Part shown: piece after piece, positions 133-36,324 of the stretch
How positions within the stretch are numbered: position 1 is the first letter of the stretch
How the letters are laid out: each line of letters starts with the position of its first letter
Assembly: GCA_019057475.1 (NCBI GenBank)
Contig: DXJO01000010.1
Span: forward strand, 1 to 43,459
Direction: 5' to 3'
DNA: 43,459 nucleotides
Source: Candidatus Thorarchaeota archaeon
GTDB taxonomy: Archaea > Asgardarchaeota > Thorarchaeia > Thorarchaeales > Thorarchaeaceae
Translations under genes and position numbers: made by a program
The notes under the pieces: generated by a model
The model's input: only the letters and a program-made list of their open reading frames with translations
Database searches by the model: none
What the model was told of the DNA's origin: nothing

Positions 133-2054
133 CATGTGTTGTTGACTACAATACTGTCGTGGGTAGTGAATACTTGTATGCCAATATCACTATCAGTGCA
201 GGTGTTATTGACAAAGATGATGTAACTCGAAGCGCCGCATAGAATAGCACGACTGATCATGTTAGTGCACGTATTGTTGGCCACGATAGCATAGCTTGTG
301 ATTAGGTAGATTCCATCCATGCTTCCACTGACAAAGTTGTTAGTAACATTATGGTTACTCCCGGTATACCGAATGAGGATGCCCCATTGTGTATTGCTAG
401 TAACTGTGTTGCCATCAACTACGTTGTCAACGCTTGCACCATCATATATGACGATGCCCCATCTGTTGCTGTGGCATGTATTATTGGCGATTGTGCCGGA
501 GTCGAACACGGGAGCGTAGATGCCATGCCTAGCGTTATAGCTGCAGTTATTGTGTGATATCACCATCGAGCTCGAGTCTTCACATATGATGCCCTCATTG
601 TTTGAAGTACATGTATTACTGTCAATGATGCTAGACCCAACGGTGTCCAGATGAATGCCATCTGCGAGATTGTTGCTGCAGTCATTTCTTGTGACGGTAT
701 GACCATCTGAATTATAGAGATATATTCCGTAGTCGTTGTTGTTGCAGATGTTGTTGGTGACAGAATGAGTATTTGAAGTCCCAATATATATGCCATAGTT
801 AGCATTATTGTTGCATGTGTTCTCAGTCACCGTTGTGCGACTGTCCCAATTTATGTAGATTCCATAGTTATTGTTGCTGCAGTCATTGTTGATTACGCTT
901 CCAGCCCATGATTCGAAGTTAATGTATATACCTCGATCGTTGTAGTTGCAAATGTTATCCCTCAGAGTGTTACTCTTGGACACAAAGAGATGCATGCCAT
1001 ATCGATCATTGCTGACACAGGTGTTGTTTGTGATAGTGTTATGATCTGCTACATATAGGTAGATTCCATCATATGTGTTGTCTACACACGTGTTGTTATG
1101 AACCGTGTTGTAGTCAGAATGGTCAAGATCGATGCCGCCGCCTGCATTTTCCTCACAAGTATTATTCGCAACAGTACATGAATCAGCATACTCCATAACA
1201 ATGCCGTAATTATTGAAGCTGCAAGTGTTGTTGTAAAGCCTGCTACCGTGAACCATGTAGACAATATAGATGCCATACCCGTTGCCTGTAAAAGTGCCAT
1301 CATACACCTTGGTTGATGCGGAGTCGTAGACATACAGACCATAAGAACTTCCAGTGCAGGTGTTGTTTGTCAATGTGTTGGAGTTTGAGGTGTAGATGCT
1401 AATACCGCGGTCGTTATCAGCACAGGTATTATGTGCGATATCGTTGGTCGTACTGGAGGAGAGGAGATTGATGCCTCGAACATTGCTCTTGCAGATATTA
1501 CGGTGGATGATATTGAGATCTGACTCCAGCAGGTATATTCCGTAGTAGTTGTCACTGCAGTTATTGTAAGTGATATTCCCAAAAATGACATACTCGAGGA
1601 AGATCCCTGCATAGTCTGTGTTGTTAGCACCCAACAGAGTGCATGACCTTATTGTGAAGTAGACGTTGGTATTGTGAATCTCAATGCAGTGACCAGCTGT
1701 GCCCGCGCGGTCAATGATGTAGTTCTCTATAATATATGGGTCATTTGAAGAACCACTACCAAACCAGCCCTCTGCCAAAGCTGTGTCACTGAAGTTCCCA
1801 TTCCCATTAATGTAAATCGGGTCGTGGGGGGTATCACTGGGAATATGAGCTCCAGTAGGTGTGATTGCATCCATTTTAACAATGGTATTCTCAGTCGAAG
1901 ACTGGTATACACTCATGTTTGTCAAAGACCCAGCAATTAGAAAGCCTATGACTACAACCAGTGCAGCTACAACAATTGTACCGATTCTCTTGTGACGCTC
2001 CACAATTGTAATTGACGACTTCTTCTCTGAATCGAATTCATTGCGATTAGGCAT
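1..2054 (-). CDS. Partial secreted beta-helix (NosD-like) surface protein
   Basis: The frame is open from an ATG at 2054 to the left edge of the window, so the C terminus is missing and 684 residues are visible. The N terminus is short and charged (MPNRNEFDSEKK), then a hydrophobic segment at about residues 23-42 serves as signal anchor. The rest is rung after rung of a right-handed parallel beta-helix with Asn-rich turns (NNTC, NNNYGIY, DNDRGI), as in NosD/PbH1 repeat proteins, so it is probably exported and surface-bound. Binding partner or substrate cannot be read from the sequence. Its start overlaps the stop of the upstream gene by 8 bases (ATGCCTAA), so the two are probably co-transcribed and translationally coupled. 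The last visible rungs are an exact duplication. Confidence 0.85.
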   Translation of the reverse strand, partial: MPNRNEFDSEKKSSITIVERHKRIGTIVVAALVVVIGFLIAGSLTNMSVYQSSTENTIVKMDAITPTGAHIPSDTPHDPIYINGNGNFSDTALAEGWFGSGSSNDPYIIENYIIDRAGTAGHCIEIHNTNVYFTIRSCTLLGANNTDYAGIFLEYVIFGNITYNNCSDNYYGIYLLESDLNIIHRNICKSNVRGINLLSSSTTNDIAHNTCADNDRGISIYTSNSNTLTNNTCTGSSYGLYVYDSASTKVYDGTFTGNGYGIYIVYMVHGSRLYNNTCSFNNYGIVMEYADSCTVANNTCEENAGGGIDLDHSDYNTVHNNTCVDNTYDGIYLYVADHNTITNNTCVSNDRYGMHLFVSKSNTLRDNICNYNDRGIYINFESWAGSVINNDCSNNNYGIYINWDSRTTVTENTCNNNANYGIYIGTSNTHSVTNNICNNNDYGIYLYNSDGHTVTRNDCSNNLADGIHLDTVGSSIIDSNTCTSNNEGIICEDSSSMVISHNNCSYNARHGIYAPVFDSGTIANNTCHSNRWGIVIYDGASVDNVVDGNTVTSNTQWGILIRYTGSNHNVTNNFVSGSMDGIYLITSYAIVANNTCTNMISRAILCGASSYIIFVNNTCTDSDIGIQVFTTHDSIVVNNTCISNNHGISVEHSHDNLVVNNTCISNNHGISVEHSHDNLVVNNT

Positions 2055-4527
2055 TACTCTTACCCTCCCTTAATGATGAAATCATTTTGCGACCGCGTGG
2101 ATGCACAGCAAGAAATAGTATAATGACTGCACCCGCGACTCCTGTTCCGGCAAGAACAATTACCATAGCTGTGTTATCACCAGCAGTCACAGTGATAATA
2201 AGAAAAGCACTGGCATTGTTTCCATAGGGATCTTGAGCAATTACCTCCAGTACATACTTACCAGGTGCAAGTTGACCAATGTTGGATAGTTCTCCTGTGG
2301 AAGAGATATCGAAACGAACTGTGTCATTGACAATCCATTGAGCAATCCCCGAACGGTCTGTAGCTTGAAGTTCCTGAGAGATAGGTTCCCATTGTCGTAC
2401 CTCCATGTCCAGTGGTGAAGCAATCCAAACAGGTGGTGTAGTATCCTCCACAGTAACCTTCATAGTATAACTGAGAACATTTCCTTCAGTGTCACTTACA
2501 CTAATCTCCACGTAGTATTCGTCAACTTGAAGTGTGCCAACACTATTGAGGAAACCACTATCACTAATAGCAAAATGAGTAGTATCGTCTACCCACCAAT
2601 CATCAAGATCAGTAGGATCATCAGCATACAACTGATACCCAAGCTGTGCGCCGAACTCTATTGTTTGGTCATACGGACTCTCGGTCCAGGTTGGGGCACG
2701 AGTATCTTCAACAGTTATTGTACAGGCTGCACTCTGTGTATTTCCGGCTAAGTCATGAACTGTTATCTCCAATCCATAGATGCCGAGTTGAATGATTCCA
2801 ATGCTGAACACTCGGCCTATGCTAGTTATGGCAAAGTTTGTCGTATCATTGAGTGTCCAATGGCTGATTCCAGTATTGTCTATTGCAGAAAGCTGCATAT
2901 CGAGCGTTTCGCCGCACTCGAGAGTAGAATCAACCGGACCTTGAACTATTTCAGGAAGAATGCTATCAATAACCTCAATCGTGATAGTAGCAGTTCGAAC
3001 ATTGTCATATGTGTCATTTACTGAAACTTCCAAAATAAAATCATGACCGAATGGAAGTATAGTTGAGTTTGAAATCACACCGTTACTGTCAACCTGAAAA
3101 TTCAGTACGTCGTCCAACCACCATTTGTCGGTATTGGATATGTCCGAGGCATTGAGATCGTACCTAAACTGATATCCAAACTCCACGGTGCAATCCATTG
3201 GAGTTTCAATCCACACCGGACCAGTAGTGTCTGCAACATATACTGTAAAGACTGCAAACGCTGTATTGCCAACCGTATCGTTAACAGTTAGGTTAAGACC
3301 ATAAACACCCACGGGCACAAATGTCGTGTTTGTAATAATACCCGCACTATCGACTGCGAACTGCGCATCATTCAGAGTCCATGTGTCTATTCCTGAGGGG
3401 TCTGTCGCATCAATATCATATGAGAATTGAGTCCCCAACTCCCAGTACTGATCAACTGGTGCAATGCTCCATTCGGGCGGCTGATTATCCATAATTGTTA
3501 CATCAAAGGTTGCGGATATGCTGTTACTATACATATCATGAACTGTTACATGAAGGCCATAGACCCCAATCTCCACTGTTATCGTATTAATAATCAAACC
3601 CAAGGCATCAATCTGGAAATTCACGGTATCATTCAGAGTCCAATAGTCTATGCCGCCATATGCAACAACGTGCAACTGGTATTCGAATGCTTCACCATAT
3701 GGACAAGTTTGATCATAAGGTTGAGTTTCCCAGGAAATCGGAGGACGTCCAGGCGGAAATATCAACGGATAGTAGTCTTTGCTGCTCGCGGTTCCACTGA
3801 TGGAATAGGGTGTGTCGCCAATTCCAATCGGACCAACGACATCAACACCATCATAGTCAGACCAATAGTTGAGATGGAAGCTATCTCCTGTGCCTGGTGC
3901 ACTGTTCCAAGCATTGTCACCATTGTCCTCAAAGATATTCATTGAAACTGTTGTGTTTGCACTACTATCATCAAGATGCAAGCCCCACAAGTCATTGTCT
4001 GACAATGTGTTTTGGTAGATGGTTGTGTTATGGGTATTAAAACTGAGATCAACGCCAATTCCATTGTCATTACACCGGTTCTCTGTGAGTTCAATAAAGC
4101 TGGAACCACCAATCTGGATTCCTGCCTGATAGTTGTTGGAGCACGTGTTGTTAATCAACTGTCCATTGGTCACATTCCAGAGATGAATGCCAGAACCAGC
4201 GGCCGAACCAGTTATAGTGCAATTATGAATTTCGAAGTATGATGCTGTGTTACGAATGTCAATACAATGCCCATATGTTCCGCCATGGTCGATTACCGAA
4301 TTATTGAGAACATAGGGGTCGCCTAGGGTTCCAGCACCAAGAAAATCTGCAGCTAGCCAGAGAGCCGAATCATCTGTTTCAATGACAAATGGATCTGCAG
4401 AGAGCTGAAAGCGCCTTATTGGATCTTCCATGAACTCATTACTCTGGCTCGACGTCCAATTTGTATTGTATAAGCCATCGATGTAAAGGTAGAATAAAGA
4501 AATTGATAGTAAGAAACTTAGAAGCAA
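2047..4527 (-). CDS. Membrane-anchored surface protein: beta-helix plus six cadherin/Ig-like repeats
   Basis: About 826 residues from a TTG at 4527. An N-terminal hydrophobic segment is followed by Asn-rich beta-helix rungs to about residue 270. Then come six tandem domains of about 86 residues, each with a P-x-W start, a G-I-x-x-W-x-L/V-N-D-T core, an N-rich turn, a D-x-x-G-N strand and a T-V-x-D-T end, as in bacterial/archaeal cadherin- or Ig-like stalk domains. A C-terminal membrane helix (about 792-815) and a short basic tail (HPRGRK) close the protein. This reads as an adhesion or surface-layer protein standing on a stalk. The start is uncertain: the same frame stays open upstream to a stop at 4633-4635 and encodes a basic stretch joined to the hydrophobic segment, but it has no ATG, GTG or TTG before 4527. 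Confidence 0.85.
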   Translation of the reverse strand: MLLSFLLSISLFYLYIDGLYNTNWTSSQSNEFMEDPIRRFQLSADPFVIETDDSALWLAADFLGAGTLGDPYVLNNSVIDHGGTYGHCIDIRNTASYFEIHNCTITGSAAGSGIHLWNVTNGQLINNTCSNNYQAGIQIGGSSFIELTENRCNDNGIGVDLSFNTHNTTIYQNTLSDNDLWGLHLDDSSANTTVSMNIFEDNGDNAWNSAPGTGDSFHLNYWSDYDGVDVVGPIGIGDTPYSISGTASSKDYYPLIFPPGRPPISWETQPYDQTCPYGEAFEYQLHVVAYGGIDYWTLNDTVNFQIDALGLIINTITVEIGVYGLHVTVHDMYSNSISATFDVTIMDNQPPEWSIAPVDQYWELGTQFSYDIDATDPSGIDTWTLNDAQFAVDSAGIITNTTFVPVGVYGLNLTVNDTVGNTAFAVFTVYVADTTGPVWIETPMDCTVEFGYQFRYDLNASDISNTDKWWLDDVLNFQVDSNGVISNSTILPFGHDFILEVSVNDTYDNVRTATITIEVIDSILPEIVQGPVDSTLECGETLDMQLSAIDNTGISHWTLNDTTNFAITSIGRVFSIGIIQLGIYGLEITVHDLAGNTQSAACTITVEDTRAPTWTESPYDQTIEFGAQLGYQLYADDPTDLDDWWVDDTTHFAISDSGFLNSVGTLQVDEYYVEISVSDTEGNVLSYTMKVTVEDTTPPVWIASPLDMEVRQWEPISQELQATDRSGIAQWIVNDTVRFDISSTGELSNIGQLAPGKYVLEVIAQDPYGNNASAFLIITVTAGDNTAMVIVLAGTGVAGAVIILFLAVHPRGRKMISSLREGKSNA

Positions 4528-5411: not shown

Positions 5412-7781
5412 ATGCTCCACGTGAGGAGAGGAACAAGTAGTCTTCTCTTGTTCATGACACTACTATTTCTATTGTTCAGTACTCAAACTTTCATCAGTTT
5501 CAATTCAATGGGACCGCAGTCCATGAGAGATGTAGACACTCTTGCTGGCCATATAGTCCACAGTGTGATTGTCATCAACGGAGATGATGATTTTAGCAGT
5601 CAGGCTGGCTCAGAGATGTGGCCGGGTTCCGGTACACTTGGAGACCCCTATCGTATAGAGAACTATCTCATTGATGGAACAGCAAGTAATCACTGCATCT
5701 CAATCAGCAACACACAGGTATACTTTGAGATTCTCAACTGTACTCTCAGAAGTCTCTCTGGTTCTATCATGGCAGGAATCTATTTGGCCTATGTTGGGAA
5801 TGCGCATATCATAGACAATGTCGCATTTGATGGCAGCAGTGGACTTTCCCTCTATTACTCTGATAATAACACCGTGGACGGTAACAGCTTCTACAACAGT
5901 GACTACGGGATGTATCTGACTCATGCCGAGAACAATACAATCTACAATAATGATTGCTATTCCAATGAAGAATCTGGCATTGCCCTTTCAAGAGGAAGCA
6001 ACAATCGCATCATGGAGAACAACTGCACATGGAATAGAGGCTCCGATATCAGTGGATGGAGGTCTCTCAATAACAATATTACAGGAAATATCATTGGCAT
6101 GGGAGATTGGAAAGCAGGCATCGCATTGGATGAATGTGACGGTTGCAGAATAACAGATAATTCCGTCTACTGCTGTATTAACGGAATCTGGGTATACTGG
6201 AGCGATTATTGTGTCGTAAGAAATAACACTGTTTCAGGCTGCAACTCTGGAATTATCATAATAGCCTATGCATCCTCGTGTGAGACCAGCCATAACACTT
6301 GCTACAACAACACCTACGCCATAGGACTGCATGGCGTCTACTACAACGAGATCTTTGACAATAACTGCACCGACAACCATCATGGTATCACAGCGACTAA
6401 TGAAGCGAGATTCAATAGTATACATGATAATCACTGTGAGAACAATAGCGTGGGAATTAGCTTTTCCTGGAACAGCTATTGGAATAACGCAACTGAGAAT
6501 ACGTGCATAGAAAACGGCATTGGAATACAGGTGAAGGATGAAACCCACGATAACAGCGTCAAGATGAACCTCTGCTTGAATAACACATACGGAATCAGTC
6601 TAAATGGAACAGCTTCTAACAACAGCATAGAAGCTAACTTTGTTAAATTCAATGAATATGGTATTTCAATCATTCAGGATTGCAAGGACAATATTGTTTC
6701 ATGGAACAATTGCACCCTCAATACTTGGGGCGTTTTTGTTAGTGGCGTTTCAGACGACAGTGTGATAACAGACAATCACCTTAGAAGTAACGAGTTCGGA
6801 GTCCTTCTCAACTACTCTGCATTCGTGCGAGTTGAGGTCAACTACATCATCGATAACACAGTCTTTGGGATTCTTGTTTCGGAATACACAAACACTAGTG
6901 TGGTGCGACGGAACACGCTTGTCGATAATGGTGTAAACATTCATGACAATGGATCGTTTACTCTTGTAGATTTCAACTTCTGGTCGGACTATTTGGGAGT
7001 TGATGCCGATTCTGACGGATTTGGTGATACGCCTCATCCCATTCCAGGAGAGGCAGGAAATGAGGACCCACATCCAGTGGTCTATCATCCATCAAGGCCT
7101 ACATGGATAGAGCCATTGTCGAATCGATTACTCGAGGCCGGCTATGCATTCCAATATGACATCAATGCTACAGCTCCGGCTCCCTTTGCAGGATGGGGTA
7201 TCGATGACACAATCAACTTTGCAATAGATAGTGACGGGGTTGTCACTAATGCACAGTTTCTCAGAGTAGGAGATCACGAAGTGACTGTATGGGTGGAGAA
7301 TATCTACGGAGTGAATCTTACCGGAGTCTTTATGGTCCTTGTCAGGGATACTATCCCTCCGACAGTGAACAGTCCGGCTGATTTCTCGTTTCCATATGAA
7401 CCCTCAGACACCTCGGTTTGTCTAATCGAATGGACCCCAGTCGACATGACACAACTTGAGTATGACATCTACAGTGATGGCTATCATGATGATTGGGGAA
7501 CTTGGAACACAAGTGATGACCCCATCACAATCAATACCTGCTATATGGCTGAAGGAGTGCATAATATTACACTTGTCTTGACAGATGAAGGAGGGAATAC
7601 TGTGCGAGACACTGTGATGGTCACGATAACCGAGCACATTTCACCAACACCCACTGATACAACTCCTACTACTACTACGACTACTGAAGACACAGGCGCA
7701 ATCATGCAGATTGTCATGATCTATGCGGGAGTAGGTATTGCGATTGTCGTCATAGTAATCATTGTGAAACGGAAACGCTAG
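5412..7781 (+). CDS. Membrane-anchored beta-helix surface protein with one Ig-like domain
   Basis: 789 residues starting at an ATG preceded by a strong Shine-Dalgarno site (AAGGAGGCG at about 5397-5405). A cleavable or anchoring hydrophobic segment lies at about residues 10-30. A long right-handed beta-helix follows (about 60-545, many NNT/DN turns and GI-strand rungs; NosD/PbH1 type). Next are one cadherin/Ig-like domain of the kind repeated six times in the neighbouring minus-strand gene, a second beta-sandwich-like stretch, a Thr/Pro-rich linker (PTPTDTTPTTTTTT), a membrane helix (about 766-785) and a KRKR stop-transfer tail. It is divergent from the two other beta-helix genes and is probably a glycosylated surface protein. 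Ligand unknown. Confidence 0.92.
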   Translation: MLHVRRGTSSLLLFMTLLFLLFSTQTFISFNSMGPQSMRDVDTLAGHIVHSVIVINGDDDFSSQAGSEMWPGSGTLGDPYRIENYLIDGTASNHCISISNTQVYFEILNCTLRSLSGSIMAGIYLAYVGNAHIIDNVAFDGSSGLSLYYSDNNTVDGNSFYNSDYGMYLTHAENNTIYNNDCYSNEESGIALSRGSNNRIMENNCTWNRGSDISGWRSLNNNITGNIIGMGDWKAGIALDECDGCRITDNSVYCCINGIWVYWSDYCVVRNNTVSGCNSGIIIIAYASSCETSHNTCYNNTYAIGLHGVYYNEIFDNNCTDNHHGITATNEARFNSIHDNHCENNSVGISFSWNSYWNNATENTCIENGIGIQVKDETHDNSVKMNLCLNNTYGISLNGTASNNSIEANFVKFNEYGISIIQDCKDNIVSWNNCTLNTWGVFVSGVSDDSVITDNHLRSNEFGVLLNYSAFVRVEVNYIIDNTVFGILVSEYTNTSVVRRNTLVDNGVNIHDNGSFTLVDFNFWSDYLGVDADSDGFGDTPHPIPGEAGNEDPHPVVYHPSRPTWIEPLSNRLLEAGYAFQYDINATAPAPFAGWGIDDTINFAIDSDGVVTNAQFLRVGDHEVTVWVENIYGVNLTGVFMVLVRDTIPPTVNSPADFSFPYEPSDTSVCLIEWTPVDMTQLEYDIYSDGYHDDWGTWNTSDDPITINTCYMAEGVHNITLVLTDEGGNTVRDTVMVTITEHISPTPTDTTPTTTTTTEDTGAIMQIVMIYAGVGIAIVVIVIIVKRKR

Positions 7782-28602: not shown

Positions 28603-28774
28603 CAACCTGGGTAATGACTTGGCATCTAGAGCGATGGAATTCTTACAGCCCTCTAGTAATCTGGAACACAGAGATGTAAGAAATATGTAAATTTTCTACG
28701 ATACGCGGGAGTCATCCACATGTGCCTGCATCGCCATGACTCCCACTCAGTCCATCTCATTCCTGATATCTTCC

Positions 28775-31700
28775 CTAGGATACCCGGATACTCCTGTCCC
28801 GCAGGGCTTGGACACAGCTCCTGATTATATCCCTCAGCATTGACTCATCAAGCTTCAGTTCGCCAAGGTCACTCCTCACCATCTCTGATACCTCATCACG
28901 GCTCAGGCGGCCCCACTCCTGCATTTTGTGAATCCATGACAAGACCGGGTACTCGTACTCATCTCCATGCGTGGAGTTCAAGACAACGTGCAACTGCTCA
29001 CCTCCGAAAGAAGCCCTGCTTACAGTCACTCTCTCAAATGTCAGGTCAGCTCTCTCTTCACTCACTCTAGCACCCTCAAGGGCGTCCTCAATCTTGCCTC
29101 GAATCGCCGCCGTCAACTTCCTGTCTGGTGTCATACTGTACCGTTTCAGGAGCCGTTCCATCCCTTTCCTCATGAACTCACGGGCATCATCTGGATCACC
29201 CAGTGCAAGCCCTCTCTTTTTCAGTTTCAGTGTCCGCTCCTCGCCGACACCTCTCAGACAGAGTCCTATCGTGACCTTGTTCGGTTCAATCATGAACGAT
29301 GGGTCCCAGTTGTCCGCAGCATCCAAGTAGGTTCCGGGGATAATCAACTTCTTGTCACCATGCAGCAGCTTCCTGAGATGCCACGACTCTTGGAGTTCTG
29401 CATACATCTCTTTCTTGAGGATGAGGTCAAAGGAGTGAGTCACCCATGATTCTCTCTCCTCTGACCAGTAGACAAGCTCGCGTGCGTTTGCCAGGGACAT
29501 CGCCAGAGAGTCAGTCATTCTGAACTCCCGTAGTTCTAGCACTTCAGGGGGCATGGGCTGGCGGCTATAGATCCTGAATCTCCAACAGGACCCGTGACTC
29601 ATGCCAGACTCGTTGGCCAGACGTTCCGGCTGACCAAGGGGAGGTTCGAACCTGAACAAGTAGTCAGAGTCCACATGGCTGCCCCTCTTACGTTCTCTTC
29701 TTATGTCTTCCAATGAGATGTATCTCAGGGGACAGGTCCAGGGGTCATGATACACCTCCAACTCGAGGTCCATATCACGTTCTGCCAACATGAGATCATC
29801 AGCAGTTTGTGGTAGAGCAAAGGCAAGCTGTCCAAATGGGTTCTTTCTCTCCACCCATGGCCTGATAACTGCGACATCGCTTGTATACTCGATATCTCTG
29901 AATCTGTTCCAGATGAGCCGCTCACTCTCCACCACTGCAGGCTCGCATTCGTAGTCAGGTCTTCGGAGCAGCTCCAACAGGTCTGCGGTCCTGTTCACCA
30001 GTAGCCGCAGAGGCTTCTGCTCATCTTCCACGGGTCGATTGTCCGAATCAGCAAAGACGATAGAGTACATGCTCTCGTCATGGTCCAGTGATACATGGCA
30101 TTTGACTGACCTACAGCCCTCAAGACCCCTGTCTACAATGAGCATTGCCACATCGATGGGGTCGTTGAGGTATGAGGGAAGCCGTCTCACATCGTGAGTT
30201 GGGATTGCCTCAAGCAGTGGTTCCTCTCGCATAGTGATTGTTCTGACTAGAGTCACATCCTCGATTCGACGGGTTGTATAGTCAACCCTCCCCACCGGGG
30301 ACCAGATACCTCTCTCGCCATCGAGTATCCATATGGCCTGCAGGTTTCTGTGTCTGGCTATCATGATTGGTGTCCCGGTCGTCCTTCGTGCGATGGCGGC
30401 ATGCTTGCTGAGCCTGCTGATGTCGCTCTCGCTCCAATACGTCTTCTCGGACACCAGTGCCTTGAGAAGAGCGGGTGGGGGTAATGTCGAATCCACGCCC
30501 CTAGACGTTAGCAGGGCGGCATTCATCTCCTGGCCACCGGGTCTACGCTGGAACACCAGCCATAACATGTCAGAGCTGGCATCACCAGATGTGGTCGGCA
30601 CAATGAGCTGTCCGAACCGCACATCACTCACAGAGTTCATTGTTTCAAGCGTTGCATTGAGCTGGGACACCCTTTGCCGCAGTCGTGGCAGGAGCTTCTG
30701 CCGGTCCAGTACGGAACTTCCTGTCGTGTGGCCCTTGGGATAGCTTGCTCTGAAACCGAGTCCCATCAGATGCCATGGTATGACATACTTCCACAGTGAC
30801 TCAAGGGAGTCTGTAAGTATCACCGACTGTCCACCTCCCAAGGCCGCAAGAATCAACAGGAAGAGATGATTTCCGGTAATCAGCAATAGATCCGGGTGTT
30901 TCATCTTAATCCTCTCGATGTGTCCTCGCTGGTTTGAGTCTAGCGACTTAGGCCCCTTGGATCGAACTGGCCAAAGTCGTTTCCATAGCGTCTTGCTGAG
31001 GTCGCTGGTTTCCAGCGTTTGACGGACTAATCTAAGCCTGTTCATCAGTTCATCACTGCTGACTGTTGAAACCTTTTCTTCCTCAATCTCCAGTGCATCT
31101 CCCATCCTCTGCAAGAGATCCTCCCAATCATCAGAACCCTTCTGAGTTCCTTGGAGAAATTCAATCGTGTTACTTAGTGCTCTCAGTTCCATCCAAGCTA
31201 TAGAGCGATTGCTCACAGTCCTGATTGAGAGGAGTGCTTCTGACGGGGGTTTCGTGGTCCTCTCTGGCGGCCTGACGCCGAGCTTCATTGTCCTGTATTC
31301 GCGTCTTTGGTCAATCTTCTCCATGGGCAGGAGCCGCTTGATTCTTCCATCCGAGTCGATTCTGTCCTTGTACTGATAGAACTTGAACCGAAGTCTATCA
31401 GGCAGTTCCGAGTCCTCTACAGGCACATCATCCAGATGTACTGACTCTATCTCGTAGCTTGCGTCAACCCTTTCCTTCTCAGGCAATTGCTGTGACCAGA
31501 AGTGTGGGACCAGTGTTATCGCGTCTCTTATGTCGCCATCCGTGTATGTTCCGGCATATTTCACTGAAGAAACCGTAGTACCAATTGAGTAGGTCTCTCT
31601 TTGCTGTCGTCGCCCTCCAGACCTGAAGTCTTCACCCCAATCCTTGAGAACTTCCACATTGATTAACTCAGTCTTCGAAGTTGTCTCGTCGTGACGCTCT

Positions 31701-34195
31701 ACAACCAAGACTCTGGTGTCATAGTCTGCAGAGGCTAGAGCGCCGAGTCTGCGGGGCGGCATTGGCAGATTCCATACTATCTCATCCACATACCTCTCCC
31801 AGTGAGTATTCCTGTAGAAGGGAGCGACGCATCGTGTCTCGTATAGAGCGTTGTTCTGCGCTAGCGGGACCGGGTGAGCGAACCAGACCACTTTGCATCC
31901 AACCGGGGTTTCTGAGATGAGTAACCTTGCAAACTCGTTGAGTGCCCCGAGGAGAGGATCAGGAGTCCCACGCCGCAGGAAATCCCAACCGGTGACTACA
32001 ATGATCGGTTTCCTGCTGTCTTTCAGTACAGGTTCTACCTTGGCCTTGAGTTCCTTCAGTGTGGCTCCTTCATGGAGATAGGCTCTGACCACCGAGGAAA
32101 GGTCTATCATCTGCACTCTCCTCCTGTAGAATCGTTTCACTGAAGCGCTGTGTCGGGAGAGTCTAAGGCGTTGCCGCGCAAGTACAGAATCTCCATATTC
32201 ACCCGTAAGGTCGAACCAGATCACGTCTCTGGCTCGGTTTCGTGCAAGGCTGTGAATGTACTGTAGTCCGTGCCACCGTGAAGCAATGACTGAGGCAGAC
32301 TGGGATGGTGACCCTCTTCCGCTCACCGAGAGGTAAAGGATGAACTCCTTCTCATCGTCCACGCGATTCTTGAACGGGTCAAATTGCTCCACATAATTAA
32401 TCGGCCGTACTTCAGATGCTGAGATAGTGCTAGACAGAACTTTCAGGACCATTCTCAGAGGTCGACCGCTTTCACTAGGTCGGAGAACATCTCCCATGGT
32501 AAGATCATTGTTCGAAGCTCTTTGATAGGCCTCAAGAATAAGGGGCGAAATTGCCTTCCTCATTTCTCCCCAGTCCTCCTTAGAGTCTACAACAATTACA
32601 GCCTTGAGAAGGTCTGTTGGTGCTAGAGTGTCCTTCCGCATTACGCTGCTATACTCAGATAGAATGGCATCACTGTAGGCTTGAAGTTGTGCCCTGTTAG
32701 CCTCTGAAACAGGACTCGCAATGACTCTGTCCCAGTTGTCCTCGGTCATCCTCCTTCGCTCAAGTACGAACTCATTGACGGTGTTCTCTTCGCTCTTGGA
32801 TTTGGTCTCGACACCGTAGATATCGACATCGAATGAACTCCTAGTCTTCAAATCGACGACCATGCAGGGTTCGTATACAATTACGACAGGACTATTATCA
32901 GCTCGGGAGAGAAACTTTCTTCGCATCAAAACTAGGTCTGCACGTCCTCTTCCACCAGCCACGTACAATTCTGAGGTCAGCAACATACCCGATGTATCAT
33001 ATGTCATCTCATCTCCGTGATAGACCACTGCACTGAGCTTGAACGGGCTTGGGAAGTACTTGGAAATGAAACGATGAAATCTGACACCGACTCGCCTGCT
33101 CTCCTCAGTGGCCTTCCTAAGCAGCTCTCTTGCATCATCCTCCGTGAGTTTTCCATTCATTATCAGACTCTTGACCTGCTCAATGGAGTCACCCCACTCG
33201 ATGATACCCTCCTTCTTGGAGCGCGCTATCATTCGATCGAAGAGGTTCTTGAGCTGGTCTTCAGCAGCAGTTTCAGATTCATCGACTAGAGCGCTGAATG
33301 AATAATGGAGATCATCCGATGGAACCCACTCTTCCGCGGCCTCCTCAATTTCTTCAGGCTCATCGAGAGAGATCTCATTCTTCGACGTATGCTTCTCCAA
33401 GGATTCCGCAATTTCAGAAGTTATGGACTGAGGCCGACCGTTTCTCGTTCCAAACTGAGCACGTATTCGGTCCACGACCGCTCTCAGTTCTTGAATCCCA
33501 CCTCGAATGAAGTTTGAACGACCAGTGTTTCTCTCAGTGTACACGTAGTCCATGAAGGGCAACAGCCTGTCGACGAGTTCATCAACGTACTTCATGGTCT
33601 TCCTCCGCGGGACACCGTATTTCAGACACTGTCTAACTAGTTCAACGAGATGAGAGCGAATCATGTCTCCAAAGTCCAGCTCAGGCAGATGATTATGTCT
33701 CAAAGGATAGATTGGTGTCTTTGCAGAACCCGGATAGCCAACTCCAAGTTTCCCATTGCCCAGGGTAATCACCCCCGGTCTAGGGAACTCGAAGCGTTCC
33801 TTCATGACATCTCTGATTCTACTCCCCGAATAGTCCCATAACTGGTTCAGGTACTCTTGGTTCCCCTCACTGCGTTTCGTACGCTTGGTTTCCCTGTTGC
33901 CGTACTTGACTGATGTCTTCAACATGATTCGGGAGAAGCTTCTTCGTATATCCTTCTCGACCTTGAGGAGCTTCCACGCATCAGGAGCACCATTCGTCAC
34001 CGTTTCTTTATACTCTTCTTTCGCTTCTCTCCAAATCTTTGCCATGCCTTTGATGCGATTACCCTGACCATGGTACAACGGATGTGCCTCCCCAGTGGCT
34101 CTGTCTTTGGCCAAGGCAAGAGTTGCTGACATTGCCATCTGAAAGGCTGTGGTAAGGACTTTTGCAGGATTCCGTGGATATGAAGGATTGCGCAT
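28775..34195 (-). CDS. Giant protein with RecB/Cas4-type nuclease domain and decayed RecA-fold ATPase
   Basis: 1806 residues, one uninterrupted frame from ATG. Residues 370-507 carry the full RecB-type PD-(D/E)XK set: GVRFH (G370, H374), GRAD (D420), VVDLK (D448, K450) and QLQAY (Q503, Y507), so nuclease activity is plausible. Residues 615-780 resemble a RecA-fold ATPase: hydrophobic strand then GRGSPSQS (626-633) in the place of GxxxxGKS, and IIVVTGWD (731-738) in the place of Walker B. The Lys is Gln, so ATP hydrolysis is doubtful. Residues 1-360 are basic/helical; 800-1806 show no family I recognise, alternating beta-rich and helical segments. Not secreted. It is divergent from tnpB, 251 bp apart, with a leaderless-type promoter. 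Defence or mobile-element function is inference. Confidence 0.85.
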   Translation of the reverse strand: MRNPSYPRNPAKVLTTAFQMAMSATLALAKDRATGEAHPLYHGQGNRIKGMAKIWREAKEEYKETVTNGAPDAWKLLKVEKDIRRSFSRIMLKTSVKYGNRETKRTKRSEGNQEYLNQLWDYSGSRIRDVMKERFEFPRPGVITLGNGKLGVGYPGSAKTPIYPLRHNHLPELDFGDMIRSHLVELVRQCLKYGVPRRKTMKYVDELVDRLLPFMDYVYTERNTGRSNFIRGGIQELRAVVDRIRAQFGTRNGRPQSITSEIAESLEKHTSKNEISLDEPEEIEEAAEEWVPSDDLHYSFSALVDESETAAEDQLKNLFDRMIARSKKEGIIEWGDSIEQVKSLIMNGKLTEDDARELLRKATEESRRVGVRFHRFISKYFPSPFKLSAVVYHGDEMTYDTSGMLLTSELYVAGGRGRADLVLMRRKFLSRADNSPVVIVYEPCMVVDLKTRSSFDVDIYGVETKSKSEENTVNEFVLERRRMTEDNWDRVIASPVSEANRAQLQAYSDAILSEYSSVMRKDTLAPTDLLKAVIVVDSKEDWGEMRKAISPLILEAYQRASNNDLTMGDVLRPSESGRPLRMVLKVLSSTISASEVRPINYVEQFDPFKNRVDDEKEFILYLSVSGRGSPSQSASVIASRWHGLQYIHSLARNRARDVIWFDLTGEYGDSVLARQRLRLSRHSASVKRFYRRRVQMIDLSSVVRAYLHEGATLKELKAKVEPVLKDSRKPIIVVTGWDFLRRGTPDPLLGALNEFARLLISETPVGCKVVWFAHPVPLAQNNALYETRCVAPFYRNTHWERYVDEIVWNLPMPPRRLGALASADYDTRVLVVERHDETTSKTELINVEVLKDWGEDFRSGGRRQQRETYSIGTTVSSVKYAGTYTDGDIRDAITLVPHFWSQQLPEKERVDASYEIESVHLDDVPVEDSELPDRLRFKFYQYKDRIDSDGRIKRLLPMEKIDQRREYRTMKLGVRPPERTTKPPSEALLSIRTVSNRSIAWMELRALSNTIEFLQGTQKGSDDWEDLLQRMGDALEIEEEKVSTVSSDELMNRLRLVRQTLETSDLSKTLWKRLWPVRSKGPKSLDSNQRGHIERIKMKHPDLLLITGNHLFLLILAALGGGQSVILTDSLESLWKYVIPWHLMGLGFRASYPKGHTTGSSVLDRQKLLPRLRQRVSQLNATLETMNSVSDVRFGQLIVPTTSGDASSDMLWLVFQRRPGGQEMNAALLTSRGVDSTLPPPALLKALVSEKTYWSESDISRLSKHAAIARRTTGTPIMIARHRNLQAIWILDGERGIWSPVGRVDYTTRRIEDVTLVRTITMREEPLLEAIPTHDVRRLPSYLNDPIDVAMLIVDRGLEGCRSVKCHVSLDHDESMYSIVFADSDNRPVEDEQKPLRLLVNRTADLLELLRRPDYECEPAVVESERLIWNRFRDIEYTSDVAVIRPWVERKNPFGQLAFALPQTADDLMLAERDMDLELEVYHDPWTCPLRYISLEDIRRERKRGSHVDSDYLFRFEPPLGQPERLANESGMSHGSCWRFRIYSRQPMPPEVLELREFRMTDSLAMSLANARELVYWSEERESWVTHSFDLILKKEMYAELQESWHLRKLLHGDKKLIIPGTYLDAADNWDPSFMIEPNKVTIGLCLRGVGEERTLKLKKRGLALGDPDDAREFMRKGMERLLKRYSMTPDRKLTAAIRGKIEDALEGARVSEERADLTFERVTVSRASFGGEQLHVVLNSTHGDEYEYPVLSWIHKMQEWGRLSRDEVSEMVRSDLGELKLDESMLRDIIRSCVQALRDRSIRVS

Positions 34196-34216
34196 TGAGA
34201 TGAATCATTGTACTAA

Positions 34217-34224
34217 ATATATAA
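34217..34224 (-). promoter_or_regulatory. TATA box of the giant gene (leaderless)
   Basis: TTATATAT on the minus strand is centred about 26 bases before the ATG at 34195, so transcription should begin at or within a base or two of the start codon. Confidence 0.65.
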
Positions 34225-34327
34225 GAATTGTTACGGCTAAAGTGACCTATGCAATACTCAATTTAACCCAAACATTCAGAGGCTAAACGCGGTTTTGTTA
34301 ATATGACGGAAAGCAGTCTTAATAACC

Positions 34328-34336
34328 TTATATAGG
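34328..34336 (+). promoter_or_regulatory. TATA box of the structured element
   Basis: TTATATAGG, centred about 25 bases before 34357, would start transcription at the first base of the paired element at 34357-34418. The same word recurs at 34424-34432 before tnpB. Confidence 0.5.
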
Positions 34337-34356
34337 TTCATTCTGTAAAAGAATAC

Positions 34357-34418
34357 GAGTTCAAAACCCCTGTTCAATACAGGGATGGGAGTGAACTCAA
34401 CTGACCGAAACAGGTCAG
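34357..34418 (+). other. Two-hairpin structured element upstream of tnpB (left end or small RNA)
   Basis: An outer stem AGTTCA/TGAACT encloses a hairpin CCCTGT-TCAAT-ACAGGG. It is followed by a perfect hairpin CTGACC-GAAACA-GGTCAG (34401-34418). Imperfect hairpins near the left end are what IS200/IS605-family elements use for transposase recognition. The CCCCTG/CAGGG words also occur in the terminal stem at 36136-36191. Because it has its own TATA box it could instead be a short RNA or a regulatory leader of tnpB. Confidence 0.55.
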
Positions 34419-34421
34419 AAC

Positions 34422-34429
34422 TTTATATA
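34422..34429 (+). promoter_or_regulatory. TATA box of tnpB
   Basis: TTTATATA, centred about 21 bases before the tnpB ATG, suggests a leaderless or nearly leaderless transcript. Confidence 0.5.
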
Positions 34430-34446
34430 GGAGAAGACGAAAGGCG

Positions 34447-36123
34447 ATGGCTCAGTCTAAAGGTGTCACAATCTCTGTCAAGGTACCCATCAAATGGGAT
34501 GCGATGACAGAGAGAACACAACAGCGGCTCAGGCAAATTGTGGGCCGGGACACCAGAGCAGTCCGTGCTTTCCTTGGTATTATTGAACAACACGAAGACA
34601 AATTGTTGACAGGTCGTAACAATGGTAGGATACGTGATGGTGAGCTCGACAAGCTCACGATGACCGCAATCAAGGTCAAAGCAGGATTCCTTCAGAGATT
34701 GACAGTCCCGCATGACCTCAAGGCTCAGTTTTCTAGAATGTCGCAGAACGAGCTGACAGAGTGTCGGCAGACTGCAGTTGCACTCTATGAGAGCTACCTC
34801 AAACTTCGCAGGAAGAAAGGAATGAAAGCCTCCCGTCCCTGCAAGATCAACTCGACTCAGAGGATTCCTAGGTGGGTGTTCAATCAGAGGTTCAAGCTCT
34901 TTGAGAAACGCACGACTGTTGCTAGATGGTGGTTGGACTTACGTGATTCTCTTGACTCTGTGCCGGAGGGAAGGAGAGTCCACGACAGGCTCTTGATCCC
35001 CCTGAAGATGTCACCCTTTCATCTCAACCAGATTGATAGAGGGGAAGTTAAGGCACTACAGGTTCTCATTGATCGAAATGGGAAGTGGTGGGTGACCTTT
35101 GCAGTTCGAGTTGACACACCAGAGCCACCAACTGACAGTCTACCTCTGGCTGTGCTTGGAATGGACCTTGGTATCGAAAAGTCTGCATGCACGACCCTTG
35201 TCACTCCCACGAAGGTCAGGGAGACCAGATACTTCGTTCAGAGGGACAAGGTGAAGGTGATCAAGAAGTATGACAGACAGGTGGCAGACCTTCAACATGA
35301 GATGGCATCGAGAAGAAATGACGGACTGCCTTACGACAAGGTTGCAGAGAAACTCAGAAGGCTCCGAACAAAGCGAGAGAACGTTGCACGAGAGTATGAC
35401 CGCGTTCTGGTACGACAGCTTGTGGACTACATCACCGAGCTCTCTGAGAGATACACCCTGTATGTTGCCATTGGTAGACTCAAGAACATCAGGGTCACTG
35501 CACGCAGAGGTAACTTCAGGGGTCGCAGGTTCAGGGGGATGATCCATTCCTGGGCTTTTGCGAGAATCACTGACAACCTCCAGCATGCATTGGCACAGCT
35601 CGGATGGTCTGTTAGTGGAAAGGATTCTCGTTTCCGAGTAGTTCCTGAGAACTGGACCTCTATCATGTGCTGGAAGTGCGGTCGCAAGGGAAGACGCCCC
35701 AGGCAGAACTACTTTGTGTGTCCAACCTGTGGAAACAGGTGCAACGCCGACAAGAACGGAGCCATCAACATCGCCGGACGCCTCATTACGCTCACGGGAT
35801 CACTTCATTCTGTGAGAGGACTAGGCAAGTGGGCTAATGCTGTTTCACGCAGCCAACGCTCACTCCCGAAAACCCGAGGGAAGGTCTCTTCTCAAGGGAG
35901 GTCCTTACTCTCCATGAAGAGTGGTGTATCGCACTCTGGAGAGTCCGCGGCTGTTCACCATGCTCAGACGAGTCTTCTCAGTTTCAGCGATGAATCTGGG
36001 ATGGGTGATAATGACCCCGCCGTGGTAGGAACTGTGAAGACCCTCTCTGTCGCCGGGAGTGATACCCCAGCATCAAGACAGGAGAAGGAAGCCAGGTCTG
36101 TAGGAGGGATACCATCCCGATGA
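34447..36123 (+). CDS. tnpB: TnpB RNA-guided nuclease, Fanzor-like rearranged RuvC site
   Basis: 558 residues. The N-terminal helical/wedge region (1-230) is followed by RuvC-I GMDLGIEK (D240), RuvC-II VAIGRLKNIR, a zinc ribbon CWKCG...CPTCG (C408, C411, C425, C428) and RuvC-III CNADKNGAINIAGR (D435). The RuvC-II glutamate of ordinary TnpB (IEDL) is Gly343 here. A glutamate at 401 in VPENWTS, directly before the zinc ribbon, matches the alternative catalytic Glu of Fanzor proteins and related TnpBs (E-x-x-T-S-x-x-C). The enzyme may therefore be active with a rearranged site; inactive TnpB-derived repressors are the alternative. Residues 445-558 are Ser/Thr-rich without a domain and overlay the predicted omega RNA. 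Divergent from the giant nuclease gene. Confidence 0.9.
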   Translation: MAQSKGVTISVKVPIKWDAMTERTQQRLRQIVGRDTRAVRAFLGIIEQHEDKLLTGRNNGRIRDGELDKLTMTAIKVKAGFLQRLTVPHDLKAQFSRMSQNELTECRQTAVALYESYLKLRRKKGMKASRPCKINSTQRIPRWVFNQRFKLFEKRTTVARWWLDLRDSLDSVPEGRRVHDRLLIPLKMSPFHLNQIDRGEVKALQVLIDRNGKWWVTFAVRVDTPEPPTDSLPLAVLGMDLGIEKSACTTLVTPTKVRETRYFVQRDKVKVIKKYDRQVADLQHEMASRRNDGLPYDKVAEKLRRLRTKRENVAREYDRVLVRQLVDYITELSERYTLYVAIGRLKNIRVTARRGNFRGRRFRGMIHSWAFARITDNLQHALAQLGWSVSGKDSRFRVVPENWTSIMCWKCGRKGRRPRQNYFVCPTCGNRCNADKNGAINIAGRLITLTGSLHSVRGLGKWANAVSRSQRSLPKTRGKVSSQGRSLLSMKSGVSHSGESAAVHHAQTSLLSFSDESGMGDNDPAVVGTVKTLSVAGSDTPASRQEKEARSVGGIPSR

Positions 36124-36211
36124 TGATAGACAAAGCCCCTGCTGACTCCAGACTCCGCCGGAGTGTGGAGGATGGCGACATCTGGCAGGGGAAGGGTGGA
36201 ACACAGGAGTC
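35900..36211 (+). ncRNA. Predicted omega RNA (TnpB guide RNA scaffold) with 3' guide
   Basis: Several strong stems lie across the tnpB 3' end. Hairpin 35908-35943: CTCTCCA/TGGAGAG outer and GAGTG/CACTC inner. Hairpin around 36106-36118: GGGAT-ACC-ATCCC, flanked by GTCT/AGAC. A closed three-way junction at 36136-36191: outer stem CCCCTGC/GCAGGGG, arm one CTCCA-G-ACTCC with a GCC loop and GGAGT-G-TGGAG, arm two GATG-GCGA-CATC with a GNRA loop. In TnpB systems the guide follows the scaffold directly, which here would be the bases after 36191 (starting AAGGGTGGAACACAGG). The 5' end is a guess. Confidence 0.65.
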
Positions 36212-36324
36212 TCTTACAGTTGAGTGTCACTCACATGAAATGTAAGAAACGGGTAATAATACAATGAGTGATATAATCGTGGGTCAATCTGTTCACCGAT
36301 TTGGCCAACGCAATGGTGTAGATA

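Follow-up and report, generated by a model that had tools for sequence, protein, structure and literature searches.

A giant protein with a nuclease-like and a RecA-like domain, encoded head-to-head with TnpB in a mobile element of Thorarchaeota

A single stretch of 43,459 nucleotides (contig DXJO01000010.1 of assembly GCA_019057475.1, Candidatus Thorarchaeota archaeon; hereafter the window) carries a gene for a protein of 1806 amino acids, the giant, whose divergent neighbour encodes a TnpB-like RNA-guided nuclease. TnpB is an RNA-guided DNA cutter from which both CRISPR-Cas12 and Fanzor descend; the usual view is that it acts alone or with the small protein TnpA. Here the giant and TnpB form a unit that recurs across Asgard genomes and moves as a whole, and both the unit and the linkage are well supported. 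The explanation we favour, held tentatively and at a little less than an even chance, is a two-gene RNA-guided element in which the giant would be a dedicated DNA-processing partner of TnpB and in which, in one of two subtypes (type A), a short-guide RNA would repress the element itself. The principal features in the window are as follows.

28629..36256, strand not assigned: inferred mobile element, roughly 7.6 kb long, which opens with GAGCGATGG and closes with the GGGTAA next to the right flank, placed by the ends of deletion derivatives and by an unoccupied site (L132).
28775..34195, minus strand: giant protein gene, 1806 amino acids, recognised by its open reading frame, its homologues and a ratio of nonsynonymous to synonymous substitution (dN/dS) of 0.26 between the L044 and L045 homologues.
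34447..36123, plus strand: TnpB-like RNA-guided nuclease gene, 558 amino acids, type A (Pfam PF07282, E 2.6e-11; NCBIfam guided_TnpB, E 3.4e-24).

The giant reading frame given by the first-pass annotation of the sequence is confirmed; it is intact and begins with ATG. The host genome (G000, archaeal, 3.34 Mb) holds four more full-length paralogues, whose best aligned stretches show 28-42% identity, together with a short C-terminal remnant. Across the family the giant measures 1400-1960 amino acids. It occurs in 33 of the 228 genomes searched in the phylum, 30 of them in the host's own family and 3 in one other family; among 32 homologue loci in the genome collection, 30 belong to Candidatus Thorarchaeota and the remaining 2 to one Heimdallarchaeota metagenome-assembled genome. 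No relative was found in the viral contigs searched. Searches of Pfam, NCBIfam, PADLOC and PDB sequences with the whole giant and its 42-43 homologues gave no meaningful match, and by sequence comparison the giant appears to be an unclassified protein family.

Linkage to TnpB is nearly without exception. Every full-length giant gene in G000 is divergent from a TnpB-like gene. A first survey found a divergent TnpB at 43 of 45 giant loci, the two exceptions having little or no upstream sequence on the contig, and a second survey added 16 further distinct loci with a head-to-head TnpB, its exception (L090) being a fragment at a contig end. The total across Thorarchaeota and Heimdallarchaeota, 59 of the 60 giant loci with upstream sequence, may include close strains of one another. 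It includes two Heimdallarchaeota giants, at 23-25% identity, with a head-to-head TnpB. The divergent intergenic region spans 72-360 bp in most copies.

Two widely different kinds of TnpB occupy this position. Type A, about 560 amino acids long, has Gly in place of the RuvC-II Glu, D-L-G in RuvC-I and an alternative Glu exactly six residues before the zinc-finger CxxC (20 of 20 aligned sequences), which is the Ealt arrangement as defined in earlier work (PMC10711439). Type B, about 715 amino acids long, keeps the canonical RuvC-II Glu. The RuvC catalytic triad is thus complete in both, through the canonical Glu in type B and the alternative-site Glu in type A. The TnpB in the window has a RuvC/TNB domain and a zinc finger; it passes the PF07282 cut-off and lies below that of NCBIfam guided_TnpB (85.9 of 100 bits). 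Type-A TnpB resembles Fanzor and Ealt TnpB proteins in the alternative catalytic Glu at ExxxxxxCxxC (PMC10711439), but differs from Fanzor and pro-Fanzor in that RuvC-I reads D-L-G with DPG absent, and the host is archaeal rather than cyanobacterial or eukaryotic. On a tree of giants (56 rows, short search, support from the Shimodaira-Hasegawa-like approximate likelihood ratio test only), the TnpB type label needs 10 changes, and the starred branches force 8. TnpB type therefore switches at least eight times on the giant tree, and the linkage outlasts repeated TnpB exchange.

The unit is mobile. Copies L044 and L045 come from two genomes and have dissimilar flanks, yet they share 93.7% identity across 8.18 kb comprising giant and TnpB; the shared stretch runs from 1 base past the giant stop codon to 5 bases past the TnpB stop codon, with unrelated DNA outside. 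In this pair the two genes have moved together. The giant has a dN/dS of 0.26 and TnpB one of 0.23, which shows selection in this one close pair. Type-A deletion derivatives, which retain the element ends and omegaRNA region and have lost the genes, occur at several places in G000 (L013, L190-L193) and in G004 (L131). They start with GAGCGATGG or a close variant, and TC stands at -4/-3 in six independent left junctions. L083 and L084 are further deletion derivatives of the same make-up. In a sister genome the site of the window copy is unoccupied (L132), and roughly 25-37 nt of the empty site are missing beside the window copy. A target-site duplication was looked for at the window copy, including by comparison with L132, and was not found.

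A tRNA gene lies within 500 bp of 12 of 40 units, compared with six tRNAs in the other roughly 350 kb of flanks (ARAGORN with introns allowed; the flank total is our own sum). Two units (L011 and L057) sit, as judged by eye, at the 3' end of 16S rRNA genes; two successive pieces, each GGTCRG plus a 16S-like sequence, were seen past the right ends of these units. The type-B unit L047 lies at the 3' end of a gene, and a diverged 49-bp copy of that gene end is found on the far side of the unit. The first-pass annotation had suggested that homologues be surveyed for enrichment in defence islands; in the copies examined the neighbours are housekeeping, tRNA and rRNA genes, and the association is with TnpB, which points to a mobile element instead.

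The right end of type-A elements encodes an omegaRNA, and a second, related module lies in the intergenic region.

35962..36256, plus strand: omegaRNA scaffold that overlaps both the 3' end of the TnpB gene and the right end of the element (compensatory change in 34 of 64 pairs; 104 double-change cells).
34319..34323, plus strand: TTAAT, a motif in the promoter that resembles a transposon-associated motif (TAM); TTMAT is found in nearly all of 32 elements.
34324..34336, plus strand: promoter target AACCTTATATAGG, located by the guide-promoter match.
34349..34417, plus strand: second omegaRNA-like module, whose last bases are CAGGTCA; 26 aligned copies show it conserved, with an invariant hairpin.
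34418..34431, plus strand: G plus the short guide AACTTTATATAGG, which matches the promoter target at 12 of 13 positions within the element.

An alignment of 16 type-A right ends supports the omegaRNA structure: 94.6% of cells are paired, and the 104 double-change cells compare with 14-18 when partners are slid by 1-3 columns and with a shuffled mean of 34. This structure comes from that very alignment, part of which is coding sequence, so the slid control favours it above all on percentage paired. One helix joins TGACC inside the TnpB gene to GGTYA in the last bases ahead of the flank, and so fixes where the guide starts. These results cover type-A TnpBs. The arrangement recalls the obligate mobile element guided activity (OMEGA) systems of IS200/IS605 and IS607 TnpB: a nuclease with RuvC and a TNB zinc finger, an omegaRNA over the gene 3' end and the right end, a guide past the right end and a TTNAT-like TAM (TTGAT in ISDra2; PMC8612924). 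It differs from them in the absence of Y1 TnpA, in the divergent partner gene for a protein of 1400-1960 amino acids and in the second short-guide module of type A, aimed at the element's own promoter. A systematic search of right-end guides against TAM-flanked sites near the element yielded no general rule, and only L042 was convincing. There, a 22-nt exact repeat links the sequence past the right end to a site next to ATGAT, some 55 bp beyond the inferred left end; about 24 of 26 positions match in register by eye, and the two copies have the look of a guide and a target on either side of the unit. Weaker tRNA or 16S rRNA pieces were seen in L011, L057, L059, L063 and L073.

The intergenic module of type-A elements ends in CAGGTCAG, resembling the end of the omegaRNA, and a short guide comes next. 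In all 34 type-A modules recognised by pattern, the bases that follow hold 9-17 nt identical to an upstream stretch that includes the TATA box. The exact guide-promoter match averages 13.1 nt within units and 6.6 nt between them, and the within-unit mean was not equalled in any of 1000 shuffles. The bases just before the upstream copy read TTMAT (T, T, A or C, A and T at positions -5 to -1) in nearly all of 32 units, to be compared with the TTGAT of ISDra2 (PMC8612924). Five type-A units were missed by the module pattern, of which L077, L064 and L121 visibly carry a variant, and two Heimdallarchaeota units have a similar arrangement by eye. No covariation was found in the second module because its hairpin is invariant, and the case for it therefore rests on guide-promoter identity. 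ISDra2 TnpB cuts at a match of 15-21 bp (PMC8612924); the guide match here is shorter, and a reasonable reading is that TnpB would bind without cutting and in this way repress its own element. The pattern suggests that type-A elements may practise RNA-guided self-repression of TnpB and perhaps also of the giant. A duplicated promoter kept alike by recombination is an alternative to a guide, but the match sits directly after a scaffold-like end and directly after a TAM-like motif, positions that speak against it. The second module goes with type-A TnpB rather than with the giant, since L188, a TnpB locus with no giant, shows the module too (by eye).

What the giant might contribute to such an element is suggested by its domains, given here from the N-terminus.

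33386..34195, minus strand: N-terminal domain, residues 1-270, mostly helical in the structure model; by conservation the best conserved part, with no Pfam match and of no known family.
32501..33163, minus strand: PD-(D/E)XK-like nuclease domain, residues 345-565 (G370, H374, D420, D448, K450, Q503, Y507), recognised by invariant residues and secondary-structure order.
31706..32398, minus strand: RecA/RAD51/KaiC-like domain, residues about 600-830, recognised by Foldseek against PDB and a viral library.
32297..32320, minus strand: degenerate P-loop GRGSPSQS, residues 626-633, from alignment and structure model.
28778..31588, minus strand: C-terminal region, residues 870-1806, with no recognisable family and no Pfam match (model predicted local distance difference test score, pLDDT, 83.1; predicted template modelling score, pTM, 0.69).

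The nuclease-like domain is marked out by conservation. Alignment A1, of 42 homologues, and the nuclease alignment A6, of 41 homologues that share 24-49% identity with the window protein, both show G370, H374, D420, K450, Q503 and Y507 to be invariant; at residue 448 all members have Asp or Glu. Conservation of this kind exceeds chance. An AlphaFold2 model of residues 1-880 (pLDDT 85.9, pTM 0.84), read with DSSP, predicts a helix at 352-378, strands at 404-412, 417-429 (with D420) and 438-452 (with D448 and K450), a helix at 498-518 (with Q503 and Y507) and a strand at 530-537. This is the alpha-beta-beta-beta-alpha-beta order of the PD-(D/E)XK core, and the motif residues fall on the expected elements. 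Profile searches with the nuclease domain alone against Pfam, PDB sequences and PHROGs matched no known nuclease family, and HHalign comparison with two Cas4 proteins gave no signal. Residues 345-565 are accordingly described as PD-(D/E)XK-like by motif and predicted topology, not as a proven RecB or Cas4 member. The giant shares with AddB/RecB and Cas4 the order and spacing of GxxxH, D, (D/E)xK and QxxxY, but differs from them in having no recognised helicase part and no detected profile similarity. The first-pass annotation had read a RecB/Cas4-family nuclease here; its motif residues, which do not vary freely among homologues, and the predicted order of strands and helices stand, and the family membership finds no profile match.

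The following domain is predicted to adopt a RecA fold. Its best Foldseek match in PDB is a chain of the XRCC3-RAD51C-RAD51D-XRCC2 complex (probability 1.00, E 3e-6), KaiC and Elp456 are among the next matches, and identity in these fold matches is 8-18%; the placement at residues ~600-830 was read from the order of strands and helices. The search of the viral library returned chiefly RecA/DnaB-like ATPases and no nuclease match. An initial guess of HerA/FtsK identity, made from VIWFDLTGEYGD, was displaced by the RecA/RAD51-like fold match. In the model GRGSPSQS lies between a strand (617-623) and a helix (631-651), and both this position and the alignment bear out the earlier reading of a Walker A site with Lys replaced by Gln. 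The giant family does not keep the GxxxxGK[ST] pattern: the Lys is not conserved, most homologues having Gln, Glu, Pro, Thr or others there and a few distant ones Lys. Certain RecA-fold proteins have no ATPase activity. The giant is like the RAD51 paralogues, KaiC and Elp456 in its predicted RecA fold and differs from them in that this fold is fused to a PD-(D/E)XK-like domain within a mobile element. The picture of a nuclease tethered to a dead ATPase thus survives as a nuclease-like part joined to a Lys-less domain of RecA/RAD51/KaiC-like fold; what it overlooked is the setting, a TnpB element. The C-terminal ~940 residues match no family in Pfam, NCBIfam, PADLOC or a PDB fold search, as had been claimed; the best hit of the last (E 0.029, probability 0.2) was not used.

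Under the favoured explanation, TnpB and the omegaRNA from its own 3' end would locate TAM-flanked DNA, and the PD-(D/E)XK-like domain of the giant would trim or nick DNA bound or cut by TnpB. An ATP-independent RecA-like domain might then act in the manner of a RAD51 paralogue, guiding repair towards copying or retention of the element at the target. In type A, the second short-guide omegaRNA would lead TnpB to its own TATA box and keep expression low. The nuclease-like and RecA-like parts of the giant would suit the processing of ends and the handling of strands once TnpB has bound or cut, and this would favour copying of the element. A DNA-processing partner that promotes copying or insertion is the most likely role of the giant, being the simplest account to take in all these observations. 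A bolder version, in which this is a self-contained element of a new class whose giant inserts or copies it at sites chosen by TnpB and omegaRNA, tRNA and rRNA genes included, and whose short-guide omegaRNA parks TnpB on its own promoter without cutting, seems rather improbable.

Several observations weigh against a dedicated partner of TnpB. Near-full-length TnpBs without a giant exist in G000 (L188, type A, G000:C54:73726; L189, type B, G000:C42:187607), so the giant is not required for TnpB persistence. At the window's own site, sister genomes hold deletion derivatives, and the giant can thus be lost. No profile match confirms its nuclease domain. An IS607-type serine recombinase adjoins the giant in five of 14 type-B units, as a gene convergent with it in three and as remnants in two, and transposition there may therefore not need the giant.

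This last point bears equally on an unlikely, though still appreciable, alternative in which the giant is the transposase of type-A elements and cuts the ends itself, TnpB only choosing or protecting the site. Type A has no TnpA gene in any element examined, yet derivatives that keep both ends are known from several places and an unoccupied site has been seen; nine type-B units and all type-A units examined are without a serine recombinase; some type-B units consist of giant and TnpB alone; and only two resolvases were found in G000. A Y1 TnpA acting in trans was rejected, Y1 TnpA (PF01797) being absent from all 16 own-family genomes searched. However, the IS607 serine recombinase of type-B copies could also act in trans, no target-site duplication was found for the window copy, and the giant gave no recognised signature of a DDE, HUH or integrase enzyme. 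The nearest known transposons differ in layout. Units of giant and TnpB differ from IS200/IS605 in lacking the Y1 HUH TnpA. Of the IS607 layout, three type-B copies have a MerR-like and serine recombinase TnpA at its customary position ahead of TnpB and two carry remnants, but the giant gene stands in reverse orientation between tnpA and tnpB, and the other type-B copies and type A have no tnpA. The aloposons Otus and Ephialtes of Heimdallarchaeum are likewise Asgard mobile elements with giant proteins and tRNA sites (PMC8813620). They are described with two tandem giants of 3000-6000 amino acids and four upstream genes including a ParA-like ATPase, and TnpB is not mentioned (PMC8813620). Aloposon identity was rejected on that description, the single giant with TnpB being a different layout.

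The giant could also be defence or counter-defence cargo of TnpB elements, like the restriction systems on other elements, to which we give a low probability. An architecture of nuclease and ATPase-like domain resembles defence proteins, and the family has several diverged copies per genome and a patchy distribution. Against this, PADLOC gave no meaningful match (best E 0.016), and the head-to-head place is fixed at all but one of the loci with upstream sequence, with both TnpB types and with no other cargo substituting. A defence-system gene as such was rejected, PADLOC, NCBIfam and Pfam being without a match. Least probable, and by our reckoning quite remote, is a giant that regulates or restrains TnpB, for example by sequestering it or by acting on DNA only when TnpB is misdirected, as in a toxin-and-partner-like pair: the shared divergent intergenic region, which in type A also holds the self-targeting guide, would suit it, but a protein of such size with an invariant nuclease signature is costly as a pure inhibitor, and TnpB persists without it.

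Elsewhere in the window, in its AT-richer first 8 kb, lie genes for two large secreted-looking repeat proteins (2047-4527 and 5412-7781), in which NosD-like beta-helix stretches and Ig-like ones were made out by eye.

Neither a giant partner of TnpB nor a TnpB guide directed at its own promoter was found described in the open-access literature, a search that covered few subscription papers or preprints and whose result is not proof of novelty. That linkage to the giant is kept while the TnpB type swaps suggests that some RNA-guided nucleases have a dedicated partner for DNA processing or recombination, a point of direct relevance to the part that TnpB plays in the spread of elements. If real, the short promoter guide offers a ready test of RNA-guided TnpB self-repression and of guide length as a switch between binding and cutting. 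Together the units make up a well-defined family of Asgard mobile elements, in a lineage close to eukaryotes.
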